Source: Chiridota heheva
Lineage: Eukaryota; Echinodermata; Holothuroidea; Apodida; Chiridotidae
NCBI GenBank assembly: GCA_020152595.1
Contig: JAIGNY010001603.1
Span: forward strand, 681,704 to 745,703
Reading direction: 5' to 3'
DNA: 64,000 nt
Shown: positions 8,357-60,396 of the stretch, in pieces
Numbering within the stretch: the stretch's first letter is position 1
Layout of the letters: each line of letters opens with the position of its first letter
Position numbers and translations under genes: made by a program
Notes under the pieces: model-generated
The model's input: the letters and a program-made list of their open reading frames with translations, nothing else
Told to the model about the DNA's origin: nothing
Databases searched by the model: none

Positions 8357-8384
8357 GGAGGTTTGGCATGAATCTAGACTAAAG

Positions 8385-8590
8385 CCTCACGTAAAAAATA
8401 TTTATCGAAAATTTCAGCATTAAGTATCGTAACGTCAGAACCTGTGTCAACCAACATTGGAATACCAATCCCATTGATATCAATCTTACACTTAATGTCA
8501 CCAGCAGTTTTACTGTCACGAAAAACTCCCAACACTCGAACGTCTTCGGCAGCTTCACTTTGAAAATTGTTCGCAGAACTAGGCCCTAGT
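8385..8590 (-). pseudogene. Gypsy aspartic protease core
   Basis: In the frame from about 8575 down the product reads NNFQSEAAEDVRVLGVF, then GIPMLVDTGSDVTILNAEIF. The catalytic DTGSD is intact. A one-base frameshift near 8390 separates it from the protease end and RT. The shift at its upstream side (near 8590) relative to Gag could be a natural gag-pol frameshift or damage; the sequence alone does not decide. Confidence 0.7.
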
Positions 8591-12259: not shown

Positions 12260-13380
12260 TTAGAAGAGATCCTTTTGGGAAGAATCAGACAAGCACAATT
12301 TGTCAGTGTAAAAGGCTCGCTTGGCTTCTTTAATTAAACCGGCAACCTTTTTGACTTGGCATGAGAACAACTGCTTGTGAATTGTAAGCTTAGTGCGCTT
12401 ATATCGGGCTTCAAGTGATCTCCTTGTCCGTCTAGCTGCAAGTATTTCCTTCGTGATCCAAGGAGTCATGCGAGCTCGGGCTTTGAAAGATTTAAATGGA
12501 GCATGTGTGTCTAAAACTGATCGGAGAGCACAGTCAATTGAAACAGCTGCAGAGTTTGAGGAAGAGTAATCAATCCCACTTAACGCTGTTGATAAATCGG
12601 CATTGAACGCTGGCATATCAATTTGGCGTAACTTCCTCATTAATTTTGTTGGACATCCCTTGTGGGTAGCAAAATAATTTGATAAATGGAAAGTCACAAG
12701 ATGATGATCAGAAAAACCAGTGTCTAATATCTGAACGTCAGTGCAAAGATCTGACTTAATGCGGCAAGTACTGGCAACAATGTCAAGGGTGTGTCCATTA
12801 ATATGTGTTGGTGCGCATACGTGTTGTTTCATATTAAGCATGTTTAAAAGCTCGATAAACCTTGCAGAATAAGATTCATTAATTTGATCCAAGTGAATGT
12901 TAACATCACCAGTGACGATTATATCGTTTGCACAAAAGAGTTGCTCGGACAGTCGATCTTCTATGTCATTCAAGAACTGTACAGTGGAAAGGCATGGAGG
13001 GCGATAAATACAAATCATGTGCATAGAACCGTGGTTGGTTTGCATTTTACATTCAATGGATTCATATGAAGTATGACAAAAATTGTCCTCACATTCAGAA
13101 ATTTGAAAATTATCTCTAAATAAGATAGCAACCCCTCCTCCACGTCTGCTAGGTCTGGGTTTATGAAATATATTGAATCCACTTGGGAGGTCATTAAATA
13201 TTGTTCCATCAGGGCCATTGGCTTTTAGCCAGGTTTCAGTGATGAACAAAATGTCTAGCTGCTTATCAATAATAAGTTCATGAAGAGCGGTCGGTTTATT
13301 ACAAATAGAGCGAGAATTAAATACACCACACTTGATGCCAAGATTTTGAATTGTTTTGTGTGAGAATGTCGGATTACTTG
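12260..13380 (-). pseudogene. LINE AP-like endonuclease domain
   Basis: The frame contains FNSRSICNK, ITETWLKANGPD, RRGGGVAILFRDN, ICIYRPPC, DIIVTGDVNIHLD, GHTLDIVAS and GFSDHHLVTFHL. These are the ordered motifs of the exonuclease/endonuclease/phosphatase fold in L2/CR1-like LINEs, including the catalytic Glu, the GDxN Asp and the SDH. A linker with basic residues follows to a stop near 12260, after which the RT part continues. The domain itself looks largely intact over about 330 codons. Confidence 0.85.
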
Positions 13381-13689
13381 TTTTAATCGGTAATAAGTTA
13401 CTGTAATCGATAGATGCGACTTTCCAAATGTTTTTGAATATCTATCACTAATCCGAACAGGAATGACACCATTAAATCGACAAATAAGTTTGCCTGCTCT
13501 ATGACCCCTGGGAGGTTTGCGAATACCCAGGTTAAGAATGCGATGCCAGCACGAATCATCAAGTTTAGTTTTATTTGTAGTGACACTGTTCCTGATATAC
13601 AGAAGAAAATTCTTGGTGTACTTAAAAACCATGGTAATAAGAGGATTAACAACACACAATTGTAACATCCAATAGTCCAAAAGTTAAGT

Positions 13690-19784: not shown

Positions 19785-20995
19785 CCTGGGACGTCATGTG
19801 AGACGTCATGTAACACATGGGGTGGGATGCCATGTGGGACATGGTGTAGGATGCCATGTGGAACAGGGTGGAATGTCATGCAGGACATAGTGTGGAATGC
19901 CATGGAATGGAATGTCATTTGGGACATGGGATGTCATGTGGGACATGGCGTCCCACCCCATTTCAACAAGTCACGAGTAACACAGAGTGTGATATAGGTT
20001 GGGATGCCATGTGTGACATAAGGTAGGATGCCATGTGTGACATAAGGTAGGATGCCATGTGTGACATAAGGTAGGATGCCATGTGTGACATAGGGTAGGA
20101 GGCTATGTGGGACATAGGGTAGGATGTCATTGGGATATTGGGAGGGATACCATGTGGAACATATGGTGGGATGCCATGCGGGACATCAGGTGGGAAGCCA
20201 CTGATGCGGGACACGGAAAGATGCCATGTGGGACATTGGGAGGGATGTCATGTGGTGCATATGGTTGGATTAATGTGGGACATACATGTAGGATGGGATC
20301 CATGGGGGACATATGGTGGAATGCCATGTGGGACATATGGTGGAATGCCATGTGAGACACTGTATGGTGGAATTCCATGTGGGAGATATGGTGGAATGCC
20401 ATGTGGGATGTCATGTGGGACATGAGGTGGGATGTCATTTGGGACATGGGATGTGGGACATAGGGTGGAATGCCATGTGGGTCATAGGATGGGATCTTCT
20501 GTGGGACATATCATGGAATGCCACGTGGGACATGGGATGTCATGTGGGACATGGGGTGGAATGCCATGTGGGAGATACGGTTGAATGCCATGTGGGAGAT
20601 ATGGTTGAATGCCATGTGGGACATGGGATGGGATGTCATTTGGGATATGGGGTGGGATGCCATGTGGCACATGGGATGCCATGTGGGACATGGAATGCCA
20701 TGTGGGACATGGGATGCCATGTGGGACATGGGATGTCAAGTGGGACATGGGATGCCATGTGGGACATGGAATGTTATGTGGGACATGGGATGCCATGTGG
20801 GACATGGGATGCCATGCTGGACATGGGATGCCATGTGGGACATGGGATGCCATGTGGGACATGAGATGGCATGTGGGACATGGGATGCCATGTGGGACAT
20901 GGGATGCCATGTGGGACATGGGATGCCATGTGGGACATGGGATGCCATGTGGGACATGGGATGCCATGGACATGGGATGCCATGGGGCTTAGTGT
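19785..20995. repeat. Long minisatellite, core GGGATGCCATGTGGGACAT
   Basis: The right part (about 20650-20985) is a regular 19-bp unit. The left part has longer, more varied units (about 24-31 bp) built from the same words 'ggatgccatgtg' and 'gggacat'. Because 19 is not a multiple of 3, each frame cycles through 19 codons, and by chance several frames on both strands stay open for 70-180 codons. These frames encode only Met/Gly/Cys/Trp/His-rich repeats and are not taken as genes. Confidence 0.95.
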
Positions 20996-37500: not shown

Positions 37501-38716
37501 AATTGAATCGTTTTAATCAGTTGTTTTGATAATTTCCTGCAACCTGCAGACTGTAGTGTTGAACATGTCTTTCGATAAAAATCCTCTGCAGGATTTGTAT
37601 ATGTTTGATCAAAGTTTAAAATAGGTTGAAATGTGACTTTGCAACAAAAAGACATATGCTATCTATTTGAGGTATCTCTCATCTACTCCAATCTGTACAC
37701 GCACACAGTCAGACGGTGAGGAAAGATTAGTGTGGATACACTAAAGACATAAACAGATTTTCAATCAGAAATAAGCTGTTTTATGTCCTTTCCAAAACGC
37801 CTATACAATCTAGGACAATATTATTTTTCCCTGCTACCTCATTTCAATGTTGATTGAAACACAAGTGTCCTATTCAACTCCATCATGAAGGAGTCCAAGG
37901 CCGCCGCCCGGCCCGCGGTGGGCGTTAAGAAGGCGACAACCTGACTACTAATTTTGTCCGAGATTGTAGTTCTCTTTGGGAGTGTTCTAAACTGTGTTAA
38001 GCCTGCCAACGAATCAAGTTTTACTACAGCACTAACCATTGACTTCAATGACAGTCTGTTTGTGTATCATCAGTTCTCTATTCAATCGATCTTACCCGGG
38101 ATTTTTTTTGGTGCAAAAACAACAATTTCTCTCAGCATATATTAAGTAGGGTTTAGTCAGCTTAACGATTTTTAAATGTGTTAGCAGCAAAACAAATTGT
38201 GAATATGAAAATAGACTACACGATTTTTACGAATTCATTTTTTGTGGATAAGTTGATATATGATCTCCAAGTAACATATCAAACATGAATGTCACATCAA
38301 TGTTGCAGGTTTCACGTAAAAAAAGCGGTAAGCAGAATTTCCAAGACGTCATTTGAAGCTCTGTAAATCCCAGACCATTGGGCTTACAACTTAGTCGGCT
38401 TCATGCATTGTGACTAAAGGTTCAAAGTCCTTCAAACAGTCAAAGGAGTATCTATATCGAAGGAATTAACGATTTTTGTTTACAAAATTGCCTGTTTAGC
38501 AGACATTAAAAATATTCACAATAAGCAGCGCGAGAAAGTAATTATTAAATATTTTTAACCTTTGTTCTTCGACGACGGAAATCGAAGAATTTGCAACTCT
38601 GTTTTGTAAGATTAGAGGGAGAGTCAAAAATAGTCCCGCCGAATTAGTCATGCTTTGGTGTAATTAAACTTAAAGAATTATGTATTTTCGAATAAACTTT
38701 ATCAATAATCTAGTCT
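34560..38716. other. Gene-poor stretch with small tandem repeats
   Basis: At 36088-36173 a ~31-bp unit (accatgtagcatatgtttgtttacaa) occurs about three times. At 37200-37600 two diverged copies of a ~210-bp segment lie in tandem ('ttccttaaccttaata...ttgatttgaactcagtgagatta' and 'ttcctcgaccttaata...ttgatctgaattcagtgagatta'). No exon was recognised. Confidence 0.45.
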
Positions 38717-38720
38717 TTAA

Positions 38721-38929
38721 AGAGGGCCTGCCATGGATTTATAATTGGCTCTTAATTGTTTAATTGGATCATTTGCTATCCAAAAATGTAGGTTTCGTTT
38801 GCTAAATTTCATTAAATTGTTTTTATCGAGGAAAAGAAAATGTTAATTTCTATCAACTTTGAAAAAAAAAAAAAGTTCTTCGGTTTAGTAGCTGATGACG
38901 TCACATGACGTAGGTATAGTGAGTCGATT
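38721..38929 (+). repeat. Left terminal inverted repeat of the TTAA element
   Basis: The outer 17 bp match the right end exactly; the central part has diverged beyond easy alignment. The inner block at 38894-38929 matches the right repeat's inner block (49291-49336), apart from a 10-12 bp indel and one substitution. Confidence 0.8.
38897..38904. promoter_or_regulatory. CRE-like TGACGTCA in left inverted repeat
   Basis: The perfect palindrome TGACGTCA is followed by a second half-site (TGACGT). It lies about 155 bp before the THAP-gene ATG. CREB/ATF-family factors bind this sequence in animals. The same site is present in the right inverted repeat, so it may be a shared promoter element. Confidence 0.45.
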
Positions 38930-39057
38930 CGTGTGTGCTGCTTGCCATCAACATATGCAACAACATGACAACGTACTGGCCTACTCGGTGCACTTACAAG
39001 TGTTGTTTATGTGATTTTGACATCGGAAGGAGAAGAAATTCAGCTGAAATAAGGAAA

Positions 39058-39335
39058 ATGTCATTTCATTGTGTCGTAGGAGAGTGTAGTAATGAAAATG
39101 AGAGATACAAATTTCCAAAGGATCGAAAATGAAACGTTTATGGACGACGTTTGTGCAGCTAACTAACGTTAGACTTGGACTACAAAATAATTTACAGGGC
39201 CTATGAAAAGCAGTGTGATTTGCGGAGAGCACTTTAGTTTTAGTGAGGATTATCTGCCAGTCTGCATGCCTACTTCTGCAAGCAGATTTTGGACTTTCTA
39301 AACGTATTTTTCAGGTTCCTGGGTCGGGTTCCACA
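39058..39335 (+). pseudogene. THAP zinc-finger domain, frameshifted
   Basis: From ATG 39058 the frame reads MSFHCVVGECSNENERYKFP KDRK, then shifts at an A-run (about 39125) to MKRLWTTFVQLTNVRLG. It shifts again at GGG (about 39198) to MKSSVICGEHFSFSEDYL, and again at a T-run (about 39289) to FGLSKR. In order these give the C2CH ligands (C-X4-C ... C-X2-H), the FP pair and the W of a THAP domain, a DNA-binding module found in host factors and in transposases of P and Kolobok type. Every break is one base at a homopolymer, so either decay or sequencing error is possible. Confidence 0.65.
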
Positions 39336-40528
39336 TTAAAACGGGGTTAGAGTTTTCTGGGCGTTAGCGTTAGTCCCGATGCAGACGTTCCTGGTACTAG
39401 GCTAGGCTGTAAATTGATAGTAGCCTACTAGGCTACAACCAGCACCAATTCCGCTACAACTTCCAACCTAACCTTGATGAACAACGACCTGCAAAGAAAC
39501 CAAGGCCTTCTTAAAAACATCGTGCCATAAAACAGGTTAGTTTAAATTTTGTATGCAAGCTAGGACGAAATTTGGTTTACATTATAATGTAGAGATGTGC
39601 TGTGGTACTAGTATAAACAAGGTAGCCGGGCATTTCCGCCAAAATATGAAGTTTTAATTTCAAATAGGCCTATACTAGGCTTATGCTACATTACGGTCAC
39701 AGGGATCACATTCAAACGAATCCCTTTTTTTATTCCTTCAAATTAATGATATTTGGTACTTAACAAGTTTTTATTTATCTTTTGGGCCCTTTTTTGTGGC
39801 CCATTTTCCCATTTCTGAAGTCAAATAATAAATATCTTTATTAATTCTTCTTGTTTGCAATCACTTTATCTATTTTCTTATAAATTCTTTTCAGTTCACA
39901 TTAATTGAAACTAAACAACATCTTATTACCAATATATTATGAGCCTTTCCGCCGTACTTTTTGGGCCGTACTGTCATGACGGTAAGGAATGGCAGAAAGT
40001 TTAGTTGGCAGAAATGCCCTTCTGTAATTCATAACAAGCAACTGAGTAAAAAGTTGATGTAGAGTATTAACGTTCTTAAAGAAAAACTTGAGCTGCACCA
40101 CATCTCTACAAAAGTGATGCAACATTTTAGAGCATAAATATTTCTAATACAAAAACTACATGTTTCATCTTTAAACAAAGGCATGGACCAAGTTCTACTT
40201 CTACAAGTTAACATTGCCATTGAAAAAATCCTTTACATGCTGTCTGAGTGAGATTATGAGGACAAATTTCCAAGTTAAAAAAGCATGAATCTGTAAATTG
40301 ACAAAATTAACTTCCATATTTGTTATGCCAGTGAAGGAATTATGAGGGGTTTTGACACCTTGCTCTTGATGATACTATTTTGTATGTCGAATAGAAAAAC
40401 TTATGCCTACATGCATGACAAAAAAATATATCATTCTGGAGTGCAAAAAATGATGTGGTAATTGGTAGGTCCTAAGTAACAAAATTACATGCCTGCATAG
40501 TTAAGATATCAAAACATCATTTTTGTAG

Positions 40529-40643
40529 ATGGTTAGAGAAATCTGTGAGGAATATGACAGGATGACCAGATTCTCTTGAAGATTTGTTGACAGAAAGTGA
40601 GGAAGCCACAGATGTTGTGCAATTTCAAGAACTTTATGGAAAG
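40529..40643 (+). pseudogene. Possible second exon of the THAP gene
   Basis: This sits between an acceptor (ATTTTTGTAG) and a donor (GGAAAG then GTTTGT). The frame WLEKSVRNMTG, stop, PDSLEDLLTESEEATDVVQF QELYGK is open except for one TGA. The composition is protein-like and acidic, but I recognise no domain. It is linked to the THAP exon by position and strand only. Confidence 0.35.
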
Positions 40644-42050
40644 GTTTGTTTCATTAATTTTTCCTTATGCTTAGATGTTGTTTTTATTTATTACTGGAAG
40701 TTTTTTGATGGTGTAACAGTAACTTCATTTACATAAATCTTCCATTTGAACGTGGGTTTTTTCCAAATTAAAAGTTAGACCTATTCAACCAATTTTGTCT
40801 TCACAATTCGCATATGGTGTTATATACCTATATCATTTTCAGTGTATTTTTTTTAATGTATATACATTGAACAACTTATTTTGTACCTTTTCAGTTAAGT
40901 CTAAGGCCATCCTAAAATAATTGTTCGTTTGGTGCAACCCTACCTGTCCATCAAAATTGGTGCCTACTCAAATTATTTCATTTTTTCTTATCTAAAGTGT
41001 TAACCTTTTATTGTACGAAAGGTATGAAAAAACCTGATATTGGCTCAAAAATCATTGCCTACCTACCCAATTTTTTTCTCAACAAAATGAGTTACACTAA
41101 ACCAACAATTAATTATGAATGGCCTAATTTAAGTCAGTTATTTTTATTCATAAAGAAATACATTTCATTGAACTCTCTTGCTGAGCTCATGGCATCATTT
41201 TCTTCAGAGATCATGAATAAAGTTGAAAAAATTGAATCTACTAGATCAGGAGGCTTGGAGGGGTCAGCCTGAAAATGAAAGGTTACCAATTTTCAAGGTA
41301 CTATAATGCCTAGCATGTTGATTATGAAAATCTGAATATCTGCAGTGGGATACGTCTGCATCTGTGATGGGATACCGGGCCATAAGAATCCTGCACTTGC
41401 CCACCCCTCTTAGCTCACTGTACTTAATGGGTGGTGATGGGATTTCCCCGATTATGGGAGGGGTATCCACTTTATCCACCAATGAGGTGGATACAAAAAA
41501 TAAATCACACAGTATTCCCTGGCAGATTGCGAAGTGAGGAAGGAAGGCGGGGGGGGTGGGCTAGAGGTCTATGTCCCCTGTCACTAGCTGATGTTACCCA
41601 TGTGTGATAACAATCCATATTGATGATCAAACTTTAGGTATTTTCAATCTCTAAATAGTGGACAAAAACTTTCACATGCTTAAATTACAAGCACAGCAGC
41701 CCCGAATTAATATCATTTGATACATATACAAATTTGTAATAACTTATGACATTGGGAAGGAGAATTTGTTTCTTACAAAAGCTGAATTTTCATGGGTCAA
41801 AATTTGCCAGCTGTTGTATTTACAAAGTGGGGAAAATTTCTTATTCAATGAATTTGAATTGTCTTGGACCTTTATATGTTATTAAGTTGTGTCAAGGTTT
41901 ATGTAAAATCTTTATTTTAATCAAGGGTTGATGGAATAAGAGGGCAATCATGTTTTGTAAAATTTACAAATTGCCCCATTAAAAAGAAGTAACATCAAAT
42001 TAAAATATTGCTATCCATATATTAAAGTTGTTTTTTTCATGTTCTTTCAG

Positions 42051-42326
42051 AATATGTTGACATCCTACTCAAGGAAGTGTATGATCTCGCAGTGCTGGAT
42101 AAGTCGGTCAGAAACCAGTCAAGTCGCATTCCTAGCCCTCATCAACCTGTATCAAGCGGCATGACAAAACCTACCTTGGAAGAAGTCTTTGAGAGGCATG
42201 CATCCAGATTCCAAACAACTGAACAAAATCAGCAGAAAATGTGGATGTAACAGGTGTTGATGGCACTTCAGACACACTGCAAATGGAGGAAAACACTCCT
42301 GGTATTAGCAACTGATTCCATCAAGT
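42051..42326 (+). pseudogene. Possible last exon of the THAP gene
   Basis: After a strong acceptor (pyrimidine run, GTTCTTTCAG) the frame reads YVDILLKEVYDLAVLDKSVR, NQSSRIPSPHQPVSSGMTKP, TLEEVFERHASRFQTTEQNQ. It then shifts by one base at an AAAA run near 42237 to NVDVTGVDGTSDTLQMEENT PGISN and TGA. No known domain was recognised. The exon phase does not match the exon at 40643 without a one-base change, so gene structure is uncertain. Confidence 0.4.
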
Positions 42327-42568
42327 TTTGATGTCTATATTGGACATAACCTCAGATTTTCCTACACTTATATTACTTTTATGAAATTTATCTGTAAAAA
42401 AACTTCATTTTATAAATGGAATATGGTTTGGTACATTAATGTTGCATACACTAGATCATCTTTTTAGCAAAAAATGAGTACCAGCTTTCTTTGGGAGCTT
42501 GCTTCATGGAAACAGGGACAGCAACATCCCTATGGAGCTATATGGTTGGGGTTGATATAATTGAAAAA

Positions 42569-42940
42569 AAGCGCCTAAAATAATTGTTTGTTTGCCCTCC
42601 ACTTTCAAAACAAGTTTGAGGGGCGGGCGGAAAATGTATAATTTTTAACAGGTCATTGAAGAATTAAAAATCATGGCTGCAAGGTCATTGGGACAGTATA
42701 CGGCCAAATATTCATTTCACGGCCAAGTTTCTTGATTTGTACAATGTGAATTAACACAATCAATTTTGGATGGCCAAGCGGCATTTTCACCTAAATTAAA
42801 CCCTTTTTTTTTTTTAAGCTAATTCAAGTGTTTGGGTCGTAAAAAGGACATTCTATGAGGTGTAGGGATTTTTGAAAACCAAATATATGTATATTTTTGA
42901 TACCGGGGGTGGTGGAGGAGGGCAAACGAACAAGTTTGTA
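42569..42940. repeat. Possible small inverted-repeat insertion
   Basis: 'attgtttgtttgccctcc' near 42585 and 'ggagggcaaacgaacaa' near 42916 are inverted copies; a related word 'taaaataattgttcgtttg' is also at 40914. A MITE with these ends is possible. The boundaries are not clear. Confidence 0.3.
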
Positions 42941-44801
42941 TGCCTAATATACATTTGTAACTTGATAAACTTCCACCAGAAATTTATTTTATGGAAGTAT
43001 AAAAAGGTTTGACAAATTTGTTTTGCGGACCCTGCGACAATTAATTTTTTCATTACGCAATCCAAGAAAATAAACAAAAGGCCTGCAAAATAATTATTTA
43101 AAAATAAGAGAAGTGTTGGATTAGGGCCAGGGAAAATAATCAGCATGTCATCTGGCAATTAAGCGTTTCATAATACTTGCCTTAGTAACAGTCAAACACT
43201 TTTGATAATTTATTGAACCCCGAGGTGTAAGCAATTATACATATATTTGATGGTTTCAAGCTACTTCTGTACACTGCAGACCAGATGTGTTGTGGGCTCA
43301 TTGTTAAGGAATTATGTTCATAACAAGAACTCCCAAAATTCTCAATGAGCACTTGAGTTGGAACTAGATACATACCGTAATCTAGATTTAAACTAGATCC
43401 CTTAAGTAGTAGTTAAGAGGGATCAGTAACAGGGCAGTGATGTTTTCCTCTCTTTATAAAAGTGAGCATTCTAAGGAGCAAAAATAAAAGGAAATCAAAT
43501 ACCATAAAAAAGGCTTCATTTATGTGTGTGACCACTGACCAGTAGTCATTGCTGTTTTGGATGGGGTGGTGGCAGGGTAACATGGAAGCATGAAGAATTA
43601 CAATGGAGCATTTGCCCATCTTCATGATGGAACCTCCACTTAGCTTTGAATTAGATAGGAGTAAAATTAAGTACAAATTTATTTTTGTTTTCACTTTTCA
43701 AGTAACTTCTTTATATTTGTCAAACTTGTAAGAAGTAATACAGGGAAAGAATACAAAGGAAGCACAAAGTATGTTGAAAAAGACTAGTACTTATTATCTC
43801 AATGTTACTTAAAGGTACAATGACATCTAAAAGCAGCTTGGGTTTAATTGCTTTAAAATATAGAATGGAACATTAATATAAGAAAAACTCCAATTAAAAT
43901 GGCTTTTACATAGTTTTTAATTTTTGGATGTTATTGTGCAATATTTTTGACATATAAAGTTGAATACCTCTCCAATTGTTTCTATTAATCATTTGTTTTT
44001 CAGTCCTTTTTAATTTATACTTTAAATGTCAAAGTCTGATTTCATGTTGTTTTTTGTATATTGAACACACTTTTAAGCAATGGGTAATCGGCTAAAAAGA
44101 ACTAAAGCTCACAACTGGTTAACATTGAGAAACACATTAAAGAATTTGAGTTATATCAAACAGATGACACCACAAAGTTTGCCTAAATTCTAAAACCTTC
44201 AAACTTTGATTGACCATTTCTCAAAACTAGACAAGCTATTGTTTGAAAATGCATTTTGCTCAGAATTTAACTTTCAGTCACATATCTAAAAACTGTTACA
44301 TGTCATCAGACCTTTAACCTTCCATCAATCGCTTCACTAGACTTTCATGCCATGGATGCAAAAACTAACAGAAAAATTATGTCAAACGGTCCAAAATGTG
44401 CGGTTGAGGGCACAAAATGTCTGTTAGGGGTTGAGCTACTGTAGTTGGCTTTGACTAAATGTCACTATCATGGGTGACGAAGAAATAAGGTGAAAAATTT
44501 CTGCTGCATTAGGCTTTTCCTTTTTTATATATTTCCCGTAGCTCATATCATGCATACACAGTTTTTGGATGACTTTTGGGATTCTGAACCGCCCTCCCCT
44601 CCCACCATATAAATCAATGCCAGTGCTTTTTGTTTTCTACTGAAGGTGAAGGTGGAGGTAAATCCATTCTGGAATATCAAACTGGATCTTGGTATAGAAG
44701 ACTGTTATGATTTTCCACTTACTGTCACTAGCCCCTTCAAGACTTTGTACTTAGTGTTCTACATGTAAATAAGAGCCTAATTTGTAATAAAAAAATAATA
44801 A

Positions 44802-44961
44802 TTAAACAACATAAATTGCTGGAATCCTGCTTTCTGCATATTCCGCTGAAGGAAAGACCTCCCTGATCTTGGTGAAAATGCATACCGGAAGTGGTACCCT
44901 TACATGTTTGCCGAGATATCCCCAACTCTACCAGTGTCTGTAGGTAGTATAAGGATAGTGT
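44802..44961 (-). CDS. P2X7-tail-like domain gene, exon 3
   Basis: The acceptor is TTCTTTCACAG. The first base completes a Glu codon with exon 2, then HYPYTTYRHW, a TAG (44930-44928), SWGYLGKHVRVPLPVCIFTK, IREVFPSAEYAESRIP and a terminal TAA. 'Y.YT.YR..W....LG......P.C....IR..FP' is the end of the cysteine-rich domain known from the P2X7 receptor tail and from stand-alone metazoan proteins. The TAG falls inside the motif, at about codon 137 of 179, so the product is cut short unless it is read through, polymorphic or a base error. Otherwise the exon is undamaged. Confidence 0.75.
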
Positions 44962-45752
44962 CTGTGAAAGAATAAATGCATTTCATTAGAAAAATATATG
45001 ACAAGCACTGGATACAAGCACTCATAAATTGATCGATACTAAACTAAAACATGACTTTGCCACTTGGCAGGTACGGTATAGAAATATATTTCCTGCTTAT
45101 CATTTTTTTTTTTATTTCTCATTGAATAATATGCAAATGAAATTTTGCTGGAAATAAAACTTGTTTGTCCAGACAAAATAAAATTCTGCTTGTGTACATA
45201 AAATATTCTGCTTGTTAACAGAACGTTTATAATCCAATTGGAGGACTGTACTTCATCGGAAAAAGAAGAAGATCTTTAGTTGTTATGTGTAGCCTGACAG
45301 GAGCTTTATCTTACCTGAAAAACAATCATTTCTTATTTACATTATCATTATTATTATTTCTTATTATTCCTCTCATACTTAAAGCCTTGCTTTGGTCTGA
45401 CATTGCGAATACCATTCCTATAAATTTCTACATTAGATGGGATCCTTGAAAGAATGATTAGTGAAATGAGAGGTAACACATTATTTATTTCAAAGTGAAC
45501 AAGAGAAAAAGTTACTAAAGAGGCTGTTAAAATATTTTTTTAAATGGTGCATGAGCTAAACCGTGCTTGAGCTTGAGGAAAAACAACCTGTATCCATAAT
45601 CATCCTAAGGTATCCTGGTATTCCAAGGTTATGCTGCACTACACATAGTTCTAACATGTCAAAAATGGGGTAATTCTCTGTAATAAAATGCAATACAATT
45701 TTTTAGATATATTATTCCAAACAAAATCTAAATGATTTGCAATGCTACTCAC

Positions 45753-45974
45753 TCATGAACTTCAGTATCAGCTCTATTTCCATACTTCTGACTGTACTGG
45801 ACTGGAACAGTGCAACTTGTAAAACATGCTGATTCAGACAAACTGGCTGAACTCCAGGGTGGGCATTCCCTGTCTTCTTCCTCACTTTTCATCTTGACAA
45901 GAACCCTCTGCATCTCTTTGCAGCATTGGCACTCGTTCAATTTTGGCATAATCTGACAATTGCCACATGTGCAC
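45753..45974 (-). CDS. P2X7-tail-like domain gene, exon 2
   Basis: Acceptor TTCTTTTTAG and donor GA then GTGAGT. Together with the split Arg codon from exon 1 the exon reads CTCGNCQIMPKLNECQCCKE, MQRVLVKMKSEEEDRECPPW and so on, to QYSQKYGNRADTEVHE. C-X-C-X2-C followed by ...E-C-X-C-C is the signature of the P2X7 C-terminal 'ballast' domain and its stand-alone relatives, thought to bind zinc. Entry phase (needs one base) and exit phase (two bases left) agree with exons 1 and 3. Confidence 0.8.
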
Positions 45975-46317
45975 CTAAAAAGAATAAATGATGAAATAAA
46001 TTATAAAAACCCTGTGAAGAACAAAGTTTACTTGTCGAGCCAAAGTGGCAACTAAGTAATACTGCACATTAGAGTCATCGGCATAACTAGACTTTTTCCA
46101 GCAGTGTCAAATTGGCAATTTTTAAGCTAAGTTTATTTTCCCCAAATTTGATTATTTTTCCAGCAATGCTTTGACAATTATATCTAAAAAAAGGGCATTT
46201 AAATGAACAATTTCTCAAAATATAAACCACACTTTTTAAAAGAACTCAAGATTTATCAGAATAATAGAATACTTTAATTTGTATTTTTGTAAACTAACTT
46301 CTACATTTTGAATTATG

Positions 46318-47395
46318 ATTGGAATGTTTGTTTGTTTGTTTGATGGGAGTTTAACGACACCACAACAGCAAGGGTCAAATTATGCCTGAAAGGTTGGATC
46401 ATTCTAGAGGTAGGAAGGAGAGTAAACAGGGGGAGATTGAGAGAAACACGAGCACTAAAAGCCAGAAAGCTGGGATCGAGAGAGGAGGTGTATGGGTGAA
46501 GAAATAATGTAAAGAGAGAGGGGGTGGGAAAAGAGGGGTAAATATGGCTGTAGAGGGAAGCATGATGAAGGAAGGAGATAATTTTATCCGGAGTTTTTTT
46601 TTTTTTGAAGAGCTCGGCTATTGAGTTGTGGGCAGCGAGGGAAGCTTTGGGAAGGTTGTACAGGGGGCAAGCAAGGAGAATGTGGTGGATTGTGAGAGTG
46701 AAATGGCAATTGTTGCAGAGGGGTGGGGGCAATAAGGAGGAGTGAGTGAGTGAGGTGGGTGTGATCTATTCTAAGGCGGGTAAAGTTGATGTTGTCGACA
46801 CGGGATAGGTTGTGAATGGTGGGTGTGATCGGAATGGTGTTTTGGGAAAAGGGGTAGGGGAAGGGTGAGGGCAAGCTTAGCAGCTGCATCAGCCCTGTCA
46901 TTGCCAGGGATGCCAACATGGCTGGGTATCCAGAAGAAAAGAATATGTTTTCTACAGGGGGAGGGGGCGAAAGGAGTTTACGGAGGATGAGGTGAGATGT
47001 GGGGCTATCCCATTTAACATTGAGTAATGAAGTAAGAACAGCCTTGGAGTCTGAGAAGATGGCAAAGTGGCTGAGCGGAGAGTAATCACAAAAGTTGAGG
47101 ACGAGGAGGATGGCCTTGGCCTCGGCCGAGAAGATGGATAAGTCGGGAAGCCTGCTACTGAGGGTGATGTCTTGGATGACGGCAGCAGCACCTATCTCGT
47201 CGCCTTTCTTGGAGCCATCAGTATAGATGGAGTTTGAGAGTTGGTTTTTGATTTGGTTGTGGAAGTTGATGAAGAGGTTAGGGTGGGTTTGGGTTTTGTG
47301 ATGAGTGGAGAGGTCCAGGTGGATAGTAGGGAGGGGGTGGCCCAGGGAGGAAAAGTGGGCCAGGAGAAAGTAAGAATGCTATAAAAATCCATCTG
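46318..47395 (-). mobile_element. LINE 3' fragment with RNase H domain
   Basis: The minus strand encodes an RNase H domain: IYTDGSKKGDEIGAAAVI, FSAEAKAILLVLNFC, FAIFSDSKAVLTSLL and, after a one-base shift, WIPSHVGIPGNDRADAAAK, covering the D-E-D-D residues. A C-terminal CNNCHFTLTIHHILLACPLY zinc-like motif follows, as in I/Nimb-type LINEs. The 3' end reads GTCGTTAAACTCCCATC followed by CAAA repeats, a typical tail. RT and endonuclease are missing, so it is 5' truncated. It is nested in intron 1 of the P2X7-tail-like gene. Confidence 0.8.
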
Positions 47396-48449
47396 AAGAA
47401 GAAATATCCCTCCACCTCACACACAAAAAACAAATCCCTGCCTCTCGCATTACAATATGTGGTTAAGAGACAGACGCAGTTTGGATTCGAGACAAAAAAT
47501 CTGTACAAATAGTATCATGTTTTTTTTATAAATATTACTTAACTGCTGTAGAAATGAACAAGCATATTACTGATTTTGAATGCCAACAAAAAAAAATTCG
47601 CTTACAACTACCAGATCTTCCGCGATCTGGGTGGATCCTATTGTAAAAGCCTGGGACTAAATAGGCCCACTGAGATAAACAACAGCTATCAGTATGCGTT
47701 AGCTATGCAAGGCATACATGTACATGTACAGCAGCCTAAACTGTACTAGATACTTTACATGCCCAGCACTGTTCATATGTCAGGATACCAGTGACACCAG
47801 CAAGGCTATGCAAAATGCAAATGTGCATAACAATTAATAACACTGATTCTGTACATTGACCAAGGTAAAAGAAGTATCTAACCCTTTAAACAAGAATATT
47901 TCTACACAGAGTAGAAAAACTGATTGAATTATCCATTACTTTAATTTAATTTTTCGAAGTCATTATAGACACGGCTTCCGTGCTTATTGTTGTGTAAAAT
48001 ATCTTATAGACACAGATATGATAGACCAAGCAGCGACATTCCCGGGTTCCCGCTCTGCTTGGGTCTTTACTCGTAAATACCGTCAGTCCTTCGGCGCGGT
48101 ATGCCATGGCTGGTAGGCAGAATGGAGAAAACAGATTTTGATTCTTTCACCGATTTGCAGAATGATATCATTCCTCCCCAATGTTCGATTCTGAATATTT
48201 AAGTCAACTTATGGCAATCCATGTTTGGTCCAATGAAAAAATATATCATTTTCTTATACGGTATACTGTACCACAAATTTGCATGCAATTTTTTAATCTT
48301 TCGTGGCTTTGCCCATGAATTCCAGGACCTCACGGGCTCTTTAGAACCCATTTGCTAACGCCGTGGAGAATTTACCCCTACCTGGCTTTATGACCATTCA
48401 TTGACCTAAGTTACATTAATATTCATAATGTGAAATTTTCACTAAATTC

Positions 48450-48750
48450 TTACAGGAATGGCACGGCGTCGCGGTGGCCGTGCCTAGTTATTATACACAT
48501 CCCTCAGTACGGGTTGACATTGGGATTGCCGGATGAGCAGCCATCACGAATGGCAGCATTACTAACACGGCTGGCATCAGTCCGACGGGGAGTACTAGGC
48601 CGTGTCTATAATTTTGACAAAATTATTACATGCACAACAGCTGTGCCTTTACTTTTGATGAAATTAGGCACGGTGGACGTACCTTTACTTTCGACGATAT
48701 TCGTACAGGCATGGTGGCCGTGCCTATAATTTTGAAGAAATTCTCACAAG
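48450..48750 (+). repeat. Short ~41-bp repeat interrupted by dispersed repeat copy 2
   Basis: Units such as 'gtacctttactttcgacgat attcgtacaggcatggtggcc' and 'gtgcctataattttgaagaa attctcac' recur at 48455, 48601, 48640, 48675 and 48715. At about 48494-48600 they are split by the dispersed repeat found in reverse at 18890-19006. Confidence 0.55.
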
Positions 48751-49090
48751 ACCCACCTTTATTTTTTGCCTTTAAAAAATTGATTGTGCTTCAAGATATA
48801 GACATCAATAACCAAAACCAACCAAGTTTCAACATGATATCTAACGTTAGGGCAGTAGGGTACAGTACCATACAAAGAACAGAGTATCTGTGAGTTAATA
48901 TGGCCTATCTTGTCTTTTTTTAACTTGATGTCGGCAAACAACATACAAACATAGGGATAGACGTTAGGCTACAGTAGGCCTACTCACCAATCAACAGTTT
49001 TGTAATGAAATGCCTACAGCCTGCGTAGGCCTACAGTAGGCCTTCATCTTCTTCGGGCTCTGCCGGCGGTGGTTCATTGCCTTCTAATAC

Positions 49091-49245
49091 CTCTCTGATA
49101 AGGGCTCATATTGGTAGGTTTCCACTCCTTTGATTACTTCATTACTGTCATTATCCCCCTCGTTTTGATTTTTAAAAACCGAGCAAGAATACAACAAATC
49201 GAGTTCGGAAATGTCATCAAAACTGTCGCTACTTGAGCTACCCAT
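49091..49245 (-). CDS. P2X7-tail-like domain gene, exon 1
   Basis: The ATG at 49245 starts MGSSSSDSFDDISELDLLYS, CSVFKNQNEGDNDSNEVIKG, VETYQYEPLSE. The donor is AGAGAG then GTATTA. An acidic, serine-rich leader ending in a Y-Q-Y-E-P motif shortly before the cysteine cluster is usual for stand-alone members of this family. The exon ends with two bases of an Arg codon, completed by exon 2. An upstream in-frame ATG at 49269 is possible. The start lies 46 bp inside the inner block of the right inverted repeat, so the repeat may act as promoter. Total coding length is 537 bp, 178 residues if the internal TAG is ignored. Confidence 0.75.
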
Positions 49246-49290
49246 TGTACAATATATATGGCGATGCACATTGTGCCTAACATAAACAAT

Positions 49291-49509
49291 AATCGACTCA
49301 CTATACCCACGTCATCAACAATAGTGTGACGTCATCAAACACATTATTTATTTTTTTGAGCACTTGGGGAAAGTGGCATTTCAAGCCTTACTTTTCGAGT
49401 CTAAATGGCTATTTTTCGTAAATTTTAAGTGGGATATTCGGAATTGGGAATATCGAGCACCTTATATTGGAATTTCAGCGATTTTTTTATTTTCCATGGC
49501 AGGCCCTCT
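49291..49509 (-). repeat. Right terminal inverted repeat of the TTAA element
   Basis: Read on the minus strand it starts AGAGGGCCTGCCATGGA next to TTAA. The inner block 49291-49336 contains TGACGTCA (49327-49334) and GGTATAGTGAGTCGATT, as in the left repeat. Confidence 0.8.
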
Positions 49510-49513
49510 TTAA

Positions 49514-50058
49514 ACATATTTTGCTTTCAAATGATTCAATTTAGATTATGTGTAATAATCTAAAATAATTGAGTAGAGGTTTCCTTTCTGCTGTCAAACA
49601 ATGGATTCATTGGTGCAACGAGCCCATTGGGCGTTTGTAAAATTTAAGAGTCTAGGCTGAATGCTTACCTTCCCACAATGGCATTGCATGGGCCCATTAT
49701 AATCAAATTTAAGAGAGAATCGATGTCTTAATCCCGCCTTCCTCTGGTTTTGGCATTAAATACCTTTATAGCTATGCAAGTCCTTACCACAATTATAGCT
49801 ACAAAGACCTAAACAGCATATTCCATAAAATGCAGATTAACAAACGGAATTGAGGTCTTTACACTGTACAAAATATATGAACAGAGGAATTTGCATGTAG
49901 AGTAATGGCTGCCCCCATTGCCTGATTGAACTAGGGAAGCTAGTGACGCTTTAAGCCATCGTCCGAGGGTTTGGAATTCTTTCTCGATCAAGGTCTTCCC
50001 CCATCAGTCCGGTTCGTACCTCCGATCGGGAGAACTGTTTTGTTTCTCCGATTTGGGG
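49514..50058. other. No gene seen
   Basis: Flank of the TTAA element; no motif was recognised. Confidence 0.5.
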
Positions 50059-52391: not shown

Positions 52392-53967
52392 CATAAAGAA
52401 TTCCCTGGCCCTTGTGGATAGGATTAATCAATTGCAAATATTGTTATTTAATTTAAAACAGATTAGGGTGATATTTGTTATTAAGTTCAAAGCAGATTAA
52501 GGTGATATATTGGTATTCAGTTGAGGATCGTTAAAGATATTCCACTTAAAAAACTTCATGCAATCGTTCTGTTTCAAATTTAGTGACAGACCTTATTACA
52601 AATCAAGTGTAGGATTGTGAGATTAGGGACAAAATTGTTCTTTTACCAAGGATGTACGAACACATTCTTGTCTCTACAAACATTATAAAGTGACAAACAA
52701 TTTGTTGATGACTGTTGAAGTGCATAACAGTAAGCCATGACAAGTATGAAGCAGCTAGATTTCGTCAGGCAACGAAATTTTTTGCAGACGTATTTCACAA
52801 CTTTACCGTTAATATTCTTTAACGTTAATATAGGAATAGTGTTTGTTATTATCCTCCCGCAAGTGGGAAATTGCTAAAAACTTTATATGTTTACATCGCC
52901 AAGATCTCAATTCCAATTTCTGAATTGTTATCGGAAGTGGATCACCACTGAATTTTCACCCAGGTCTTTTTCACAAATTGATCAGAAAACCAGAAACGGG
53001 TGATTTGGATTGGATCGTCATTTAGGCCTATCATCAACACCCTTTGAGGTCAGCATCACTCATTGGCATCTTTCACAAAGGCTGAATTAACGTCGCTGAG
53101 TTACGAAATAAAACCACATCCAACATAGCAGCGCGGTAACTAAGTGGGTACAAACAAATCTCAAATCCACAATCATTTGCTAACTGTTCTGGGTAACAGC
53201 AATCAGATATACAAGAGATTTTAGCAAAAGGGATACACCAAATTCAGTTTGCTAAGTCTTGTGGGTAATAGCAATCAGATATACAAGCCCGCAGCGGGCC
53301 TGTTAGTGCAGTTTTTGTTCACCATTTTGCCGTCATTCAGTCTGTGTGAGCAGAAATTTGTTTTGTACAGAAAATTGCATTGAATACATGAGCGCGCACC
53401 GGTAACCACTTGTACTGTACCAGTACCGCGGAAGAAGTTTGCCCCAATTAGTTACGCAGATTTTGTTTTAGGCAAATTCATGTGGTGATTTGTTGAAAAA
53501 GTTGTCTATTCTCTAACTCAGACAGATTAATTGGGAATAGGTTGGATTAAGATGACCAGCCTCTGCGCTTGATGTCATCGTGTATTTTTGTATGTGTGGA
53601 AAAATGCGGATTTAAATCGTTGTTAAACTCGAACCTGGAATCCCTAAATGTCTTAGATAATATTATAATTATGTGTAGCATAATAATGTATACTAATCCC
53701 TATGGTTTATCATGTTGCAGTTTTCACATCGTTAAATCTGATTATTTTTAACAGGTTTGAAAAGTCGGTGGACTCATGACTAAAACCAGATCAGGTGAAG
53801 GTTTCGTATGGTGTCTACTAATCAGAGGTTTTTCTTTACAAGAATTGAAATACTGCAAAACTTTTGGAAATTTAATCTGCATGAATTAAGCACGACACAA
53901 TATTTTGAAATATATTAACAAATTGCTTCATTTTAATTGGGTGAAACTCGTTGGATTTGTACTCACA
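52392..53967. other. Upstream region of the SLC5 gene, no clear promoter
   Basis: A short duplicated phrase ('aacagcaatcagatatacaag' and 'aatagcaatcagatatacaag') lies at 53195-53290. Two related phrases ('cagattagggtgatattt...ttattaagtt', 'cagattaaggtgatatatt...ttcagtt') are at 52460-52525. No confident promoter or 5' exon was seen. Confidence 0.4.
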
Positions 53968-54555
53968 ATGGAGACTGATAGAGTCGTTTTCTCTATAGCT
54001 GACTATATGGTATTTTCAGTAATGCTTGCCTTGTCGGCTTGCACAGGATTGTACTATGTCATTCTTCGAATTAGAGAAAACAGAAAACACCCGTATCAAT
54101 CAATGGACACTGAATTAGAGGAGACTGGTGGAACACATCCTTTTAAAGTTGGTTTGTCTACCTTTATTGGTTCTATATCCGCAATTACGTATCTTGGTAT
54201 ACCAGCAGAGGTATATCTAAATGGTTCCTTATTTTGGATTATCTCATGGAGTATAGTACCTGCTTGTTTGATAATAAACTATGGATTTCTGCCAGTACTG
54301 TACCGTTTAAGACTTCACAGTATGTTCGATTACTTGGAGATGAGATTTAACAGAACTGTAAGATTGTTTGGAGTTTTATCGAATTTTACCAACCTACTTA
54401 TTTACATGTCAGTTATCATGTATGGTTTAGCACTAGCGTTAAGTGCAGTTACTGGTGTGAGTCTATGGGGCGCCATCTTGTCGATTGGTTTGGTGAGGAC
54501 TGTATTTACGATGATAAGTGGGATAACTTTACAGCTATGGGTGGAGCTATTCCAG
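53968..54555 (+). CDS. SLC5-family sodium-coupled transporter, exon 1
   Basis: The ATG at 53968 is chosen because METDRVVFSIADYMVFSVML opens the first membrane segment as in SMVT/SMCT-type proteins; the open frame upstream has no ATG. The exon holds about TM1-TM5: a segment at residues 8-30, then GLSTFIGSISAITYLGIPAE (the family's helix with the GIPAE/GVPSE motif), YRLRLHSMFDYLEMRFNRTV and later membrane helices. It ends LQLWVELFQ at a donor (TTCCAG then GTAAAT), exactly 196 codons, phase 0. Proteins of this group (SLC5A5/A6/A8/A12) carry iodide, biotin/pantothenate or monocarboxylates with sodium. The normally conserved GG-x-KAV-x-WTD-x-FQ stretch is altered (SGITLQLWVELFQ), so substrate cannot be guessed. 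Confidence 0.9.
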
Positions 54556-55462
54556 GTAAATATTTTTTATTCTTTTAGCTATTAATGTTGATTTTACACC
54601 AGAATCGTTTCGGAAAATGATATGTATTTGAATTTGTAGTTGAGAAAAAATAATGTTTTAATTATTTTATGAGTGCCTTTGAATTTCAAAGCAATATAAG
54701 TATTCTTTCCAGCCAGAACATAACTTGCCAACCACTATACTCTATTGTACGTGAGGTTTTGAACAACTGACTCTAAAAAATTTACATCCATCCACTTTTT
54801 TATATAAGAGGAAATAACCAAACAAGTACAAAATATTTCTTTTGGTATTTGGAGCTGATCAATTTACTAATAAAAGCCCATCAAACTCACAACGTTAGTA
54901 GATACACCACAGAGACATAATGGCTTTTAATATAACAAAAACTGAATGGGCTATAAATGCTTTACATAGCAAAGGAAAAATGTGCGCTGAGAAAGCATTT
55001 TCATCTCATGGTTATGCATTCGGTTTAATAGTTAAATTTAATGATTGAAGGGGGCTACATTTTCAACCACTAAACAGGAGAAATTGATCCATTTCAAAGT
55101 CTTCATTTGTGCGAAACATGTCAACTTTTGTGAAATTGTAGTCTTCTACTGAAATATTTCTTTTAAATGTATTTTGTAGAGTTTGAAGGATTTCTCTGAG
55201 AAAAGCTTTTATTAGATTAATAAACTAAAAATACTGCCAGTGGTTGGAAAAACTTTATTTGTTTGAATTGTAATTAACATTTTGGTAAAATGTACATTAG
55301 AAAAACCATGCACAAGTAGAGCAGACAAAACTATTGACACTGTAGTTCAGTCAACAATTATGGTAAAGTAGAAAAATAATTTGAAATCTAATAGTGCCGA
55401 GCAACGTTGTTGATCTCTAATTTATATGGTTGACATTTCTGTAAGAGATATATTCTAATATA

Positions 55463-55592
55463 CCTGTTTATGGTAATAAAATTGTTTATTGTAATACAAA
55501 TGTATGGTATTATATCTGTTTATGGTAATAAAACTGTTTATGGTAATATAGCTGTTTATGGTAATATACCTGTTTATGGTAATATAACTGTT
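55463..55592. repeat. 18-bp tandem repeat in the SLC5 intron
   Basis: The unit CTGTTTATGGTAATATAA recurs about seven times with small changes, ending 55 bp before the exon 2 acceptor. Confidence 0.85.
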
Positions 55593-55648
55593 TACCTTCA
55601 CGTCTTTGTATAAGTTTTTAAATAATTCTTTCCCTTTTACATACATAG

Positions 55649-56878
55649 ATCGTCTTGATGATGATGGGGTTTCTACTTGTCATAGTTGGTAGCTGTCGTG
55701 ACGCTGGTGGATTGTCAGAAGCATGGAGTATAGCAAAAGATGATGGGAGAGTGCAATTTGTAGACTTTGCATTCAATGCAACTCAGCGTCATAGCGTGTG
55801 GTCACTTTTTATAGGAGGAACATTTCTCATGTTATGTTTTCTCGGTCCTAACCAAATGAACATAGAGAGATATAGAAGGTGCAATTCCGAAGCCAATGCA
55901 AGGCTATCGGTATGGGTCGGTCTCATATTATGTGCAATCTTCGAAATATTTGCAGTTGTCGTCGGAATATTTATGTATTCATATTACTCTGATTGTGATC
56001 CTTTCACCTCGGGGACTTTACAAAGACCTGCAGAGTTATTACCATATTTCATTCTTGATTTGTATTCTGATCTTCCTGGCACTCCTGGTCTTCTTATGTC
56101 AGCCCTGTTTGCTGCTTCGCTGAGTTCAACATCAGCGGGTTTAAACTGTCTGGCTTCTACTACCATTAATGATCTAATCCGGGTAAAATGGAATAATCTA
56201 AGTACATTAAGGTATACAATAGTTACAAAGATAACCGCTGGGTTGTACGGTTTGCTATGTATGTTAATGGCTTTCCTCATTACAGGGTTAGAAAATATTC
56301 TTCAAATAATCCTTAGCTGGGCAGGGGTACTAGGTGGACCAATATTAGGCATATTTACACTCGGTTTGTTTGTTTCTAAAGCAAATTCAAAAGGAGCACT
56401 CTTTGGTGGAATACTGGGTTTAGGGTGCGGGTTATTCTTCCTTATAGGTTCATTCGTCTTTCCATCCACTGGATATGCTTTAGACCTCTATACCAATGAC
56501 TGTCCCGTTATCTCCTCCAGGTCGTTAAATGAATCGTTTACGTCACAGGATCTGTTTTTGCAACACGCATATATCAAAAGGGATCGTTTACCTCGATATT
56601 CAGAGGATGAGTACTCCTCATTTGAAATGGTGTTTTCTGTCTCTTATTTGTACTACAGTTTTATCACTTGGATAGTTACATTCCTAACAGGAATAGTGGT
56701 CAGCTTGGTGACAAAGCAAGACCCACATTATCAGACAAATCTACCAAATGACTTGGTTCAATCATTCGGTTGCTTTCCCAAAGTTTACAAAAGCAAAGGA
56801 GAAGATGAGTTAGATTTTTATGACCCTGATTCACATGAGCTTGATCGTTGGCAAGCTTTTTCAAGCGAGTATGACTGA
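55649..56878 (+). CDS. SLC5-family sodium-coupled transporter, exon 2
   Basis: After the acceptor ACATACATAG the exon continues in phase 0 with IVLMMMGFLLVIVGSCRDAG, then SVWSLFIGGTFLMLCFLGPN QMNIERYRRC. SLC5 landmarks follow: LPGTPGLLMSALFAASLSST SAGLNCLASTTINDLI (the helix supplying the sodium-site Ser/Thr), WAGVLGGPILGIFTLGLF, and SKGALFGGILGLGCG. A long extracellular loop with NESF and a final membrane segment are followed by a hydrophilic tail and TGA at 56876-56878. The exon encodes 409 residues; the whole protein is 605, normal for SMCT/SMVT members (about 610-635). A two-exon coding structure is unusually simple for this family in animals. No frame damage was seen. Confidence 0.92.
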   Translation: MVLMMMGFLLVIVGSCRDAGGLSEAWSIAKDDGRVQFVDFAFNATQRHSVWSLFIGGTFLMLCFLGPNQMNIERYRRCNSEANARLSVWVGLILCAIFEIFAVVVGIFMYSYYSDCDPFTSGTLQRPAELLPYFILDLYSDLPGTPGLLMSALFAASLSSTSAGLNCLASTTINDLIRVKWNNLSTLRYTIVTKITAGLYGLLCMLMAFLITGLENILQIILSWAGVLGGPILGIFTLGLFVSKANSKGALFGGILGLGCGLFFLIGSFVFPSTGYALDLYTNDCPVISSRSLNESFTSQDLFLQHAYIKRDRLPRYSEDEYSSFEMVFSVSYLYYSFITWIVTFLTGIVVSLVTKQDPHYQTNLPNDLVQSFGCFPKVYKSKGEDELDFYDPDSHELDRWQAFSSEYD

Positions 56879-59860: not shown

Positions 59861-60396
59861 ATGGAATATTATCATCTCCAATAAAATGATATCAGCTTCT
59901 TTCAGCTGAATATTATCATCTCCAATAAAATGATATCGGCTTCTTTCAGCTGAATATTATCATCTTCGATATAATAATATCAGCTTCTTTCAGCTGAATA
60001 TTATCATCTCCAATAAAATGATATCGGCTTCTTTCAGCTGAATATTATCATCTCCAATAAAATGATATCGGCTTCTTTCAGCTGAATATTATCATCTTGG
60101 ATAGAATGATATCAGCTTCTTTCAGCTGAATATTATCATCTCCAATGAAATGATATCGGCTTCTTTCAGCTGAATATTATCATCTCCAATAAAATGATAT
60201 CGGCTTCTTTCAGCTGAATATTATCATCTTCGATATAATGATATCAGCTTCTTTCAGCTGAATATTATCATCTCCAATAAAATGATATCAGCCTCTTTCA
60301 GCTGAATATTATCATCTCCAATAAAATGATATCAGCTTCAAATATTACCATTTTCAACAAAATGATATCAGCTTCTTTCAGCTGAATATTCAGCTA
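59861..60396. repeat. 44-bp tandem array, about 12 units
   Basis: The unit has the order TGAATATTATCATCTCCAAT, AAAATGATATCAGCTTCTTT, CAGC. Units vary mainly at CAGC/CGGC and CCAAT/TCGAT/TGGAT. Each contains an imperfect palindrome around CAGCTG. It stops just before the inverted-repeat element at 60407. Confidence 0.95.

Follow-up and report, generated by a model that had tools for sequence, protein, structure and literature searches.

Remnants of a THAP transposase gene and a P2X7 ballast-like gene in an apparent Kolobok-type transposon of Chiridota heheva

We analysed a 64,000-nucleotide stretch of the genome of the holothuroid Chiridota heheva (contig JAIGNY010001603.1, positions 681,704 to 745,703; hereafter the window) and, within it, the segment from 38717 to 49513, which to judge from its sequence is a DNA transposon, a degenerate copy of a Kolobok-type element. 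A sequence-only reading of the window had described TTAA at both borders of this segment, 17 identical terminal bases and a second conserved block 173 bp inside each end. The borders and terminal bases were confirmed at 38717/49510 and at 38721 (+)/49493 (-), and the block, TGATGACGTCAC, starts 173 bases in at both ends. The same reading had described two genes that run inwards from the two ends, here the remnant of a predicted transposase gene on the left and a gene for a P2X7 ballast-like protein, KolX, on the right. The features of the element are listed below; C-numbers denote contigs or copies elsewhere in the host genome.

38717..38720, no strand: left target-site duplication TTAA, seen in the sequence
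38721..38737, + strand: left terminal inverted repeat of 17 bp, AGAGGGCCTGCCATGGA
38893..38934, + strand: left subterminal block, TGATGACGTCAC directly abutting ATGACGTAGGTATAGTGAGTCGATT
39058..39347, + strand: THAP exon of the putative Kolobok transposase remnant, frameshifted here; the sister copy C1217 matches PF05485 at E 1.4e-6
40529..40647, + strand: putative second coding exon of the transposase remnant (MVREICEEYDR...), with a similar-looking open reading frame in the related element C826, compared by eye
40648..42050, no strand: interval that holds the DDE (Asp-Asp-Glu) catalytic exons in C826, 1.4 kb long here with no core detected
42051..42250, + strand: last (C-terminal) exon of the transposase remnant; C1217 matches P0050 residues 351-408 at E 2.5e-6, and the C826 equivalent is 119281-119442
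44800..44961, - strand: KolX last exon, interrupted here by a stop; tblastn match to P0005 142-198 at E 3e-11
45753..45974, - strand: KolX cysteine exon (WCTCGNC...ECQCCKE...), its frame broken by the same gap in 13/13 copies
46313..47378, - strand: RNase H fragment of a non-LTR-like (LTR, long terminal repeat) retroelement in a KolX intron; Pfam RNase_H match below cut-off
47612..47637, - strand: tentative KolX micro-exon (...RSRKIW), proposed with low confidence from splice-like borders and phase judged by eye
49030..49245, - strand: KolX first exon (MGSSSSDSFDD...YQYEP), out of frame beyond PLSER unless splicing uses a donor at that point
49286..49337, - strand: right subterminal block, TGATGACGTCAC at the same distance as on the left, a short gap of about 10 bases, then ATGACGTGGGTATAGTGAGTCGATT
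49493..49509, - strand: right terminal inverted repeat of 17 bp, AGAGGGCCTGCCATGGA
49510..49513, no strand: right target-site duplication TTAA, seen in the sequence

At up to three mismatches, AGAGGGCCTGCCATGGA occurs at two sites in the whole window, which are the two ends of the element, where 0.05 sites are expected. Beyond this 17-bp repeat the ends align poorly up to TGATGACGTCAC and the following ATGACGT(A/G)GGTATAGTGAGTCGATT. The 17-mer has 246 exact occurrences in the 1.1-Gb host assembly (121 forward, 125 reverse) and its reversed control has none; positions were taken from the first 100 places, and all 25 facing pairs noticed there were retrieved. Twelve of these pairs, 7,964-17,894 bp long, are for the most part colinear with the window element, and their aligned pieces are 78-94% identical. 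All 12 contain KolX matches and DNA matching the THAP region, and 10 also give THAP protein matches. A search by end sequence, as the first reading had proposed, yields 12 further elements with both gene regions inside. The 14 flanking bases compared differ among the long copies, indicating separate sites. The remaining 13 pairs span just 383-3,558 bp, resemble the window element near the ends only and show no KolX match at E 1e-3. End pairs at other distances enclosing neither gene had been named as evidence against a single element; the short pairs go some way in that direction, whereas every long pair holds both regions. With the window element included, TTAA flanks both sides in 20 of 26 elements, among them 10 of the 13 members of its family, and in the remaining six TTAA is altered by one or two bases on a single side.

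The genome was also searched with the DNA of individual exons. At least 40 matches were found for the THAP exon (the best 40 of 95 candidates) and at least 40 for the KolX last exon (the best 40 of 76 candidates). Nineteen of the 40 THAP-exon matches listed pair with a KolX match in the same orientation, 18 of them over distances of 4.3-6.1 kb and the remaining one over 10.9 kb; these copy numbers and pairings are lower bounds. Such observations bear on the idea that the locus is an ordinary pair of adjacent host genes near which inverted repeats lie by chance or through segmental duplication. Stand-alone P2X7-like genes are indeed annotated in many invertebrates (Rump et al. 2020), but the hundreds of end copies set against none in the control, the TTAA borders and the differing flanks of the 13 long elements argue strongly against this explanation, to which we give almost no credence.

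The left-hand gene carries a real THAP signal. The THAP exon of the window element itself has no transposase match at E 1e-3, and its frameshifted sequence corresponds to a domain that exceeds the Pfam cut-off for PF05485 in C1217 (29.4 bits, cut-off 23.9) and in C1540, a contig of another KolX group. In the 10 copies of the family that retain both marks, the step from CGEH to GLSKRIF is shifted by +1 in seven and by +2 in two and is in frame in one (C25); the frame lesion is common, not universal. None of 41 transposases matches a DDE core at E 1e-3 in the window element or its 12 sisters, so the DDE/DxxH signature of Kolobok transposases was detected in none of the 13 copies, in agreement with the earlier failure to recognize a core. 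We therefore regard the window element as a non-autonomous derivative. The THAP gene read inward from the left is, on its exon content, best described as the broken remnant of a transposase gene (predicted THAP, probable second and C-terminal exons) rather than as the separate gene first proposed.

For the right-hand gene, the three-exon structure originally described survives as three clear predicted exons with a tentative small extra one, in a broken gene. Compared with P2X7-like proteins, the DNA of the window element matches in two exons, at E 3e-11 and 1e-7. The open reading frame of its cysteine exon alone has no Pfam match, and the consensus last-exon frame scores 18 bits for Pfam, under the cut-off. 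A composite of consensus exon pieces, hand-assembled and crossing frame breaks, reaches 27.7 bits for P2RX7_C (cut-off 23.5, E 3e-6). The last exon in C1540 matches P2RX7_C at E 2.2e-9. A search with the C1540 KolX protein returned 49 relatives, 46 of them with PF20478 and the best, at 65% identity, from Apostichopus japonicus; a profile built from 24 of the 49 matches solved P2X7 chains at residues 467-594 (E 1.7e-10). By this sequence similarity we identify the predicted product as KolX, the second protein of Kol0 Koloboks and a zinc-cysteine protein similar to the P2X7 ballast. A Peptidase_U32 match in one frame of the last exon lay below cut-off and was taken as chance.

The KolX reading frame appears to have been lost early. 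By fuzzy matching, the span from QCC to HPGF in the cysteine exon is 67 nt in all 13 copies of the window family, compared with 75 nt in C826; this common 8-nt difference implies that the frame was broken before the family spread, and individual copies carry additional stops. It could be imagined that the family nevertheless still makes a KolX that serves its elements, the break being bypassed by splicing or frameshifting, and the three clear exons are among the less diverged parts of the element (mean pairwise difference 0.061-0.070, compared with 0.073-0.139 in the introns and middle). However, the non-LTR fragment is equally little diverged (0.067 over 36 pairs), which leaves a weak contrast, and the gap falls in the conserved cysteine region of every copy, with further stops in single copies. 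Continued production of KolX is, in our estimation, extremely improbable. The RNase H fragment is present at least in part in the window element and 10 of its 12 sisters; it is precisely missing from C272b and gone within a larger gap in C983. Similar RNase H pieces lie near the KolX loci L051 and L059 and, in C1540 and C826 respectively, next to KolX and next to the last transposase exon.

A related element retains more of the transposase. C826:107640-124247 is 16.6 kb long with nearly identical terminal repeats and TTAA on both sides. After TTAA it begins at 107640 with AGACGGCCTGCCATGGA (one mismatch); at the other end the exact 17-mer is followed by TTAA, at 124231-124251. Its own ends share 89% identity over 226 bp. 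Between them lie a THAP exon, an exon with the first catalytic D (LGGDGRANSPGH) and a C-terminal transposase exon, with KolX exons convergent to them; the DDE exons are located between the second and last transposase exons. C826 was read outside 110401-112249 and 114651-117399, and of its catalytic residues the reading covers the first D. A second copy of this family, C1954, is 93-97% identical in the parts compared, has transposase matches on the strand opposite KolX and keeps the KolX last exon open. The ends of the 13 short elements all match C826, with 84-93% identity, and we therefore take these elements to be deletion derivatives of the C826 family.

The complete arrangement is clearest in C1540, the fullest gene set read, where a THAP exon, linker and transposase exons lie on the strand opposite KolX. 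Its transposase exons are 63-85% identical, exon by exon, to the Apostichopus protein P0050, and the TDRHRQ and YDVWH motifs are present. Searching with the transposase part of the joined C1540 exon pieces returned 41 proteins, 24 of which carry PF05485 (THAP) and/or PF20700 (Mutator-like). In an alignment of 19 of the 41, the D, D and E residues are invariant in GDxRxDxPGH, TDRHRQ-like and E(A/S)FH-like contexts and DxWH is nearly invariant, so that the Kolobok DDE/DxxH signature is found in KolX-bearing relatives (in C1540, with the first D visible in C826). In A. japonicus, the best KolX and best transposase matches presumably come from the same 941,341-bp contig.

Across the host genome, P2RX7_C identifies 21 loci (22 matches). 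Seven have a transposase match within 6 kb, and all seven are convergent; 0.04 are expected within 15 kb, a figure built on 75 transposase places from 99 listed matches, with the best 98 of 245 candidates scored. The 21 loci form repeat groups of 8, 7, 2 and 2 with two singles, and no match of more than 100 bp connects one group with another. C1954, one of the two singles, is a member of the C826 family, and the seven convergent loci derive from four groups when it is counted. This recurrence weighs on the suggestion that host THAP and P2X7-tail-like genes were captured as passengers of an unrelated TTAA transposon. Both genes are broken in the window family, as expected of passengers, but the convergent layout recurs in four groups without mutual DNA likeness over 100 bp, the THAP exon is part of a transposase gene, and KolX is published as the second gene of Kol0 Koloboks (in the portion of Kojima and Bao 2022, PMC9587614, on which we draw). 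We regard host capture as very unlikely. In KolX genes of other groups (L046/L047, in C763 and C288, and L048), most of P2RX7_C lies in one stretch, unlike the split gene of the window element; these genes carry stops or frame breaks. In L068, roughly the first 3,800 bases (C1540:443700-447503) include a run of N next to a KolX element.

The TTAA duplication would also suit a piggyBac-type element with a different transposase, and a few piggyBac families carry a protein like the KolX C terminus (portion cited of PMC9587614). There, RR...YY termini are given as the distinction of Kolobok from piggyBac, and the window element and C826 both end in AG...CT; the same ends in the other 25 elements are uninformative because those elements were retrieved by that end sequence. 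In addition, the 24 relatives with THAP or Mutator-like domains and the lack of a piggyBac domain in Pfam scans of the C1540 pieces speak against piggyBac membership, which we did not adopt and to which we assign a negligible probability.

The Kolobok suggestion of the sequence-only reading was thus borne out by the TTAA duplication, the RR...YY ends, the THAP transposase remnant and the KolX gene. We conclude that the window element is very probably one copy of a non-autonomous Kolobok family of the KolX-bearing (Kol0) kind, whose progenitor lost the DDE core and the KolX frame and which was moved in trans into TTAA sites. In the ancestor, a THAP-DDE transposase gene read inward from the left would have converged with KolX, read inward from the right, both starting a few hundred bases from their respective ends. 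Its descendant, the progenitor of the family, would have lost the DDE core while retaining the THAP and C-terminal exons, and would have acquired the frame-breaking gap in KolX; the non-LTR fragment would be carried by most of the copies read. Kolobok transposases would be expected to cut an element at its ends and insert it at TTAA. Since no transposase core and no open KolX frame were found in the 13 copies read, it was probably a transposase acting in trans that allowed the family to spread. The simplest source would be a C826-type transposase, since the 17-bp ends and a subterminal site are in common.

Several observations weigh against this conclusion. C826 is itself damaged: its THAP exon contains a stop, the matches to its first DDE exon fall in two frames, and its KolX last exon has a broken frame. 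Its right end and that of the window element are 71% alike beyond the 17 bp, so cross-mobilization between the two types is something we infer. Among the sisters, one piece of C788 is rearranged, and large stretches of the window element are missing from C983 and C272b. The empty-site check put forward with the original proposal failed to produce one: joined flanks matched only the element's own two flanks. Fourteen of the 21 KolX loci have no transposase neighbour among the matches listed (the best 98 of 245 candidates), and the Kol0 assignment, which follows from the KolX gene, is putative.

Kol0 Koloboks encode a transposase and KolX, and KolX resembles residues 476-595 of P2X7, its cytoplasmic ballast; P2X7 is held to have arisen by fusion with KolX (all from the portion cited of Kojima and Bao 2022, PMC9587614). 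The element shares with the Kol0 Koloboks described there the TTAA duplication, RR...YY ends and KolX, with a DDE transposase in its relatives. It differs in that its family, a putative member of the clade, has no DDE core and a broken KolX frame and forms a long (~10-kb) non-autonomous derivative. The idea that such a domain was the source of the P2X7 tail has been in print since 2022 (PMC9587614), and the window element is a new example, not a new principle. As for the proposal that the ballast-like gene may spread as cargo or as a working part, KolX is a standing component of such Kolobok transposons, so that 'working part' fits the lineage, and the gene is dead in the window family, with the gap in 13/13 copies. 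With this locus, one more genome supports the published assignment of the P2X7 ballast domain to Kolobok transposons, and some invertebrate 'P2X purinoceptor 7-like' annotations may be transposon genes. The window family also indicates that a ~10-kb Kolobok multiplied to dozens of copies, to judge from at least 40 THAP-exon matches, with core and KolX frame lost in 13/13 copies, and this spread suggests that the family's own KolX was not needed for its movement.

Other described systems share parts of this picture. The usual motifs of Kolobok transposases are DDE, THAP and H2CH, and Xenopus XKol elements combine all three with AG termini, TTAA and lengths of 8.8-13.9 kb in five rows (both as given in the consulted part of the XKol paper, Zoological Lett. 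2018, PMC6004289); the 17-bp end of the window element differs in sequence from theirs, and 'P2X' is absent from the main text of that paper. KolobokP, also of the Kolobok superfamily and listed from A. japonicus, has long terminal direct repeats of ~450 or 660 bp and a His-Me nuclease (portion cited of PMC9587614); no long direct repeat of this type was found among the 20 largest of 57 direct-repeat families in 38600-49630. Rump et al. 2020 (PMC7016195, in the sections we use) describe stand-alone ballast (ZCD) genes, nanor and P2X7 as sharing one zinc-cysteine ballast domain, an Ixodes protein that joins this domain to one printed as 'TAHP', and two linked markers that accompany ballast genes from sponge to urchin in an 'ancestral synteny'. 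In those sections the ballast genes are described as host genes, whereas the linked genes here sit inside transposons; words beginning 'transpos' are absent from the main text. Part of this 'ancestral synteny' may reflect the paired genes of a single transposon. Our literature searches found no report of the window family and none linking P2X7-tail proteins with THAP and transposition terms; to present knowledge, the family, its C826 relative and the TGACGTCA site ~175 bp inside both ends appear to be new.

This TGACGTCA site, which we take to be a CRE (cAMP response element; CREB/ATF) site, lies within a range of 156-196 bp from the ends across copies. It is found at 10/13 left and 13/13 right ends of the window family, at 9/13 left and 12/13 right ends of the short elements and at both ends of C826, and occurs once elsewhere in the 64-kb window. 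Beside TGATGACGTCAC, a 30-nt pair (38905-38934 and 49286-49315) is 90% complementary. A stricter doublet, TGACGTCAC-N8-20-GATGACGTAG, has 175 genomic occurrences, against none for the control, and is found at 7/13 right ends of the family; its exact form is absent from both ends of the window element and from all 13 left ends of the family, and a constant doublet is no longer claimed. The most modest reading is that TGACGTCA serves as a shared inward promoter, because it lies upstream of both predicted start codons, which sit at positions 338 and 265 from the ends of the element. It is possible, although unlikely, that TGACGTCA and a second ATGACGT(A/G)G form a dedicated subterminal site, either a CRE-like inward promoter co-expressing transposase and KolX or an end-pairing site for THAP or KolX. 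Retention in two families whose right ends are otherwise ~71% alike favours such a site, and the varying spacing between the block halves among ends disfavours it. In the end-pairing case, the P2X7 tail would descend from a cofactor that binds transposon ends.

Elsewhere in the window, an Rfam scan at gathering scores gave no match. Two exon-like open reading frames of a sodium:solute symporter gene lie at 53890-56878 (+; PF00474, E 1e-13 and 1e-14). Remains of LTR-type retroelements lie at 5892-8386 (-), with reverse transcriptase, RNase H and integrase domains, and at 976-1521 (-), a separate SH3-like/integrase piece. A non-LTR-type retrotransposon endonuclease domain occupies 12263-13441 (-; PF03372/PF14529), and tandem arrays of 19-24-bp and 44-bp units are found at 20000-20984 and 59864-60390.

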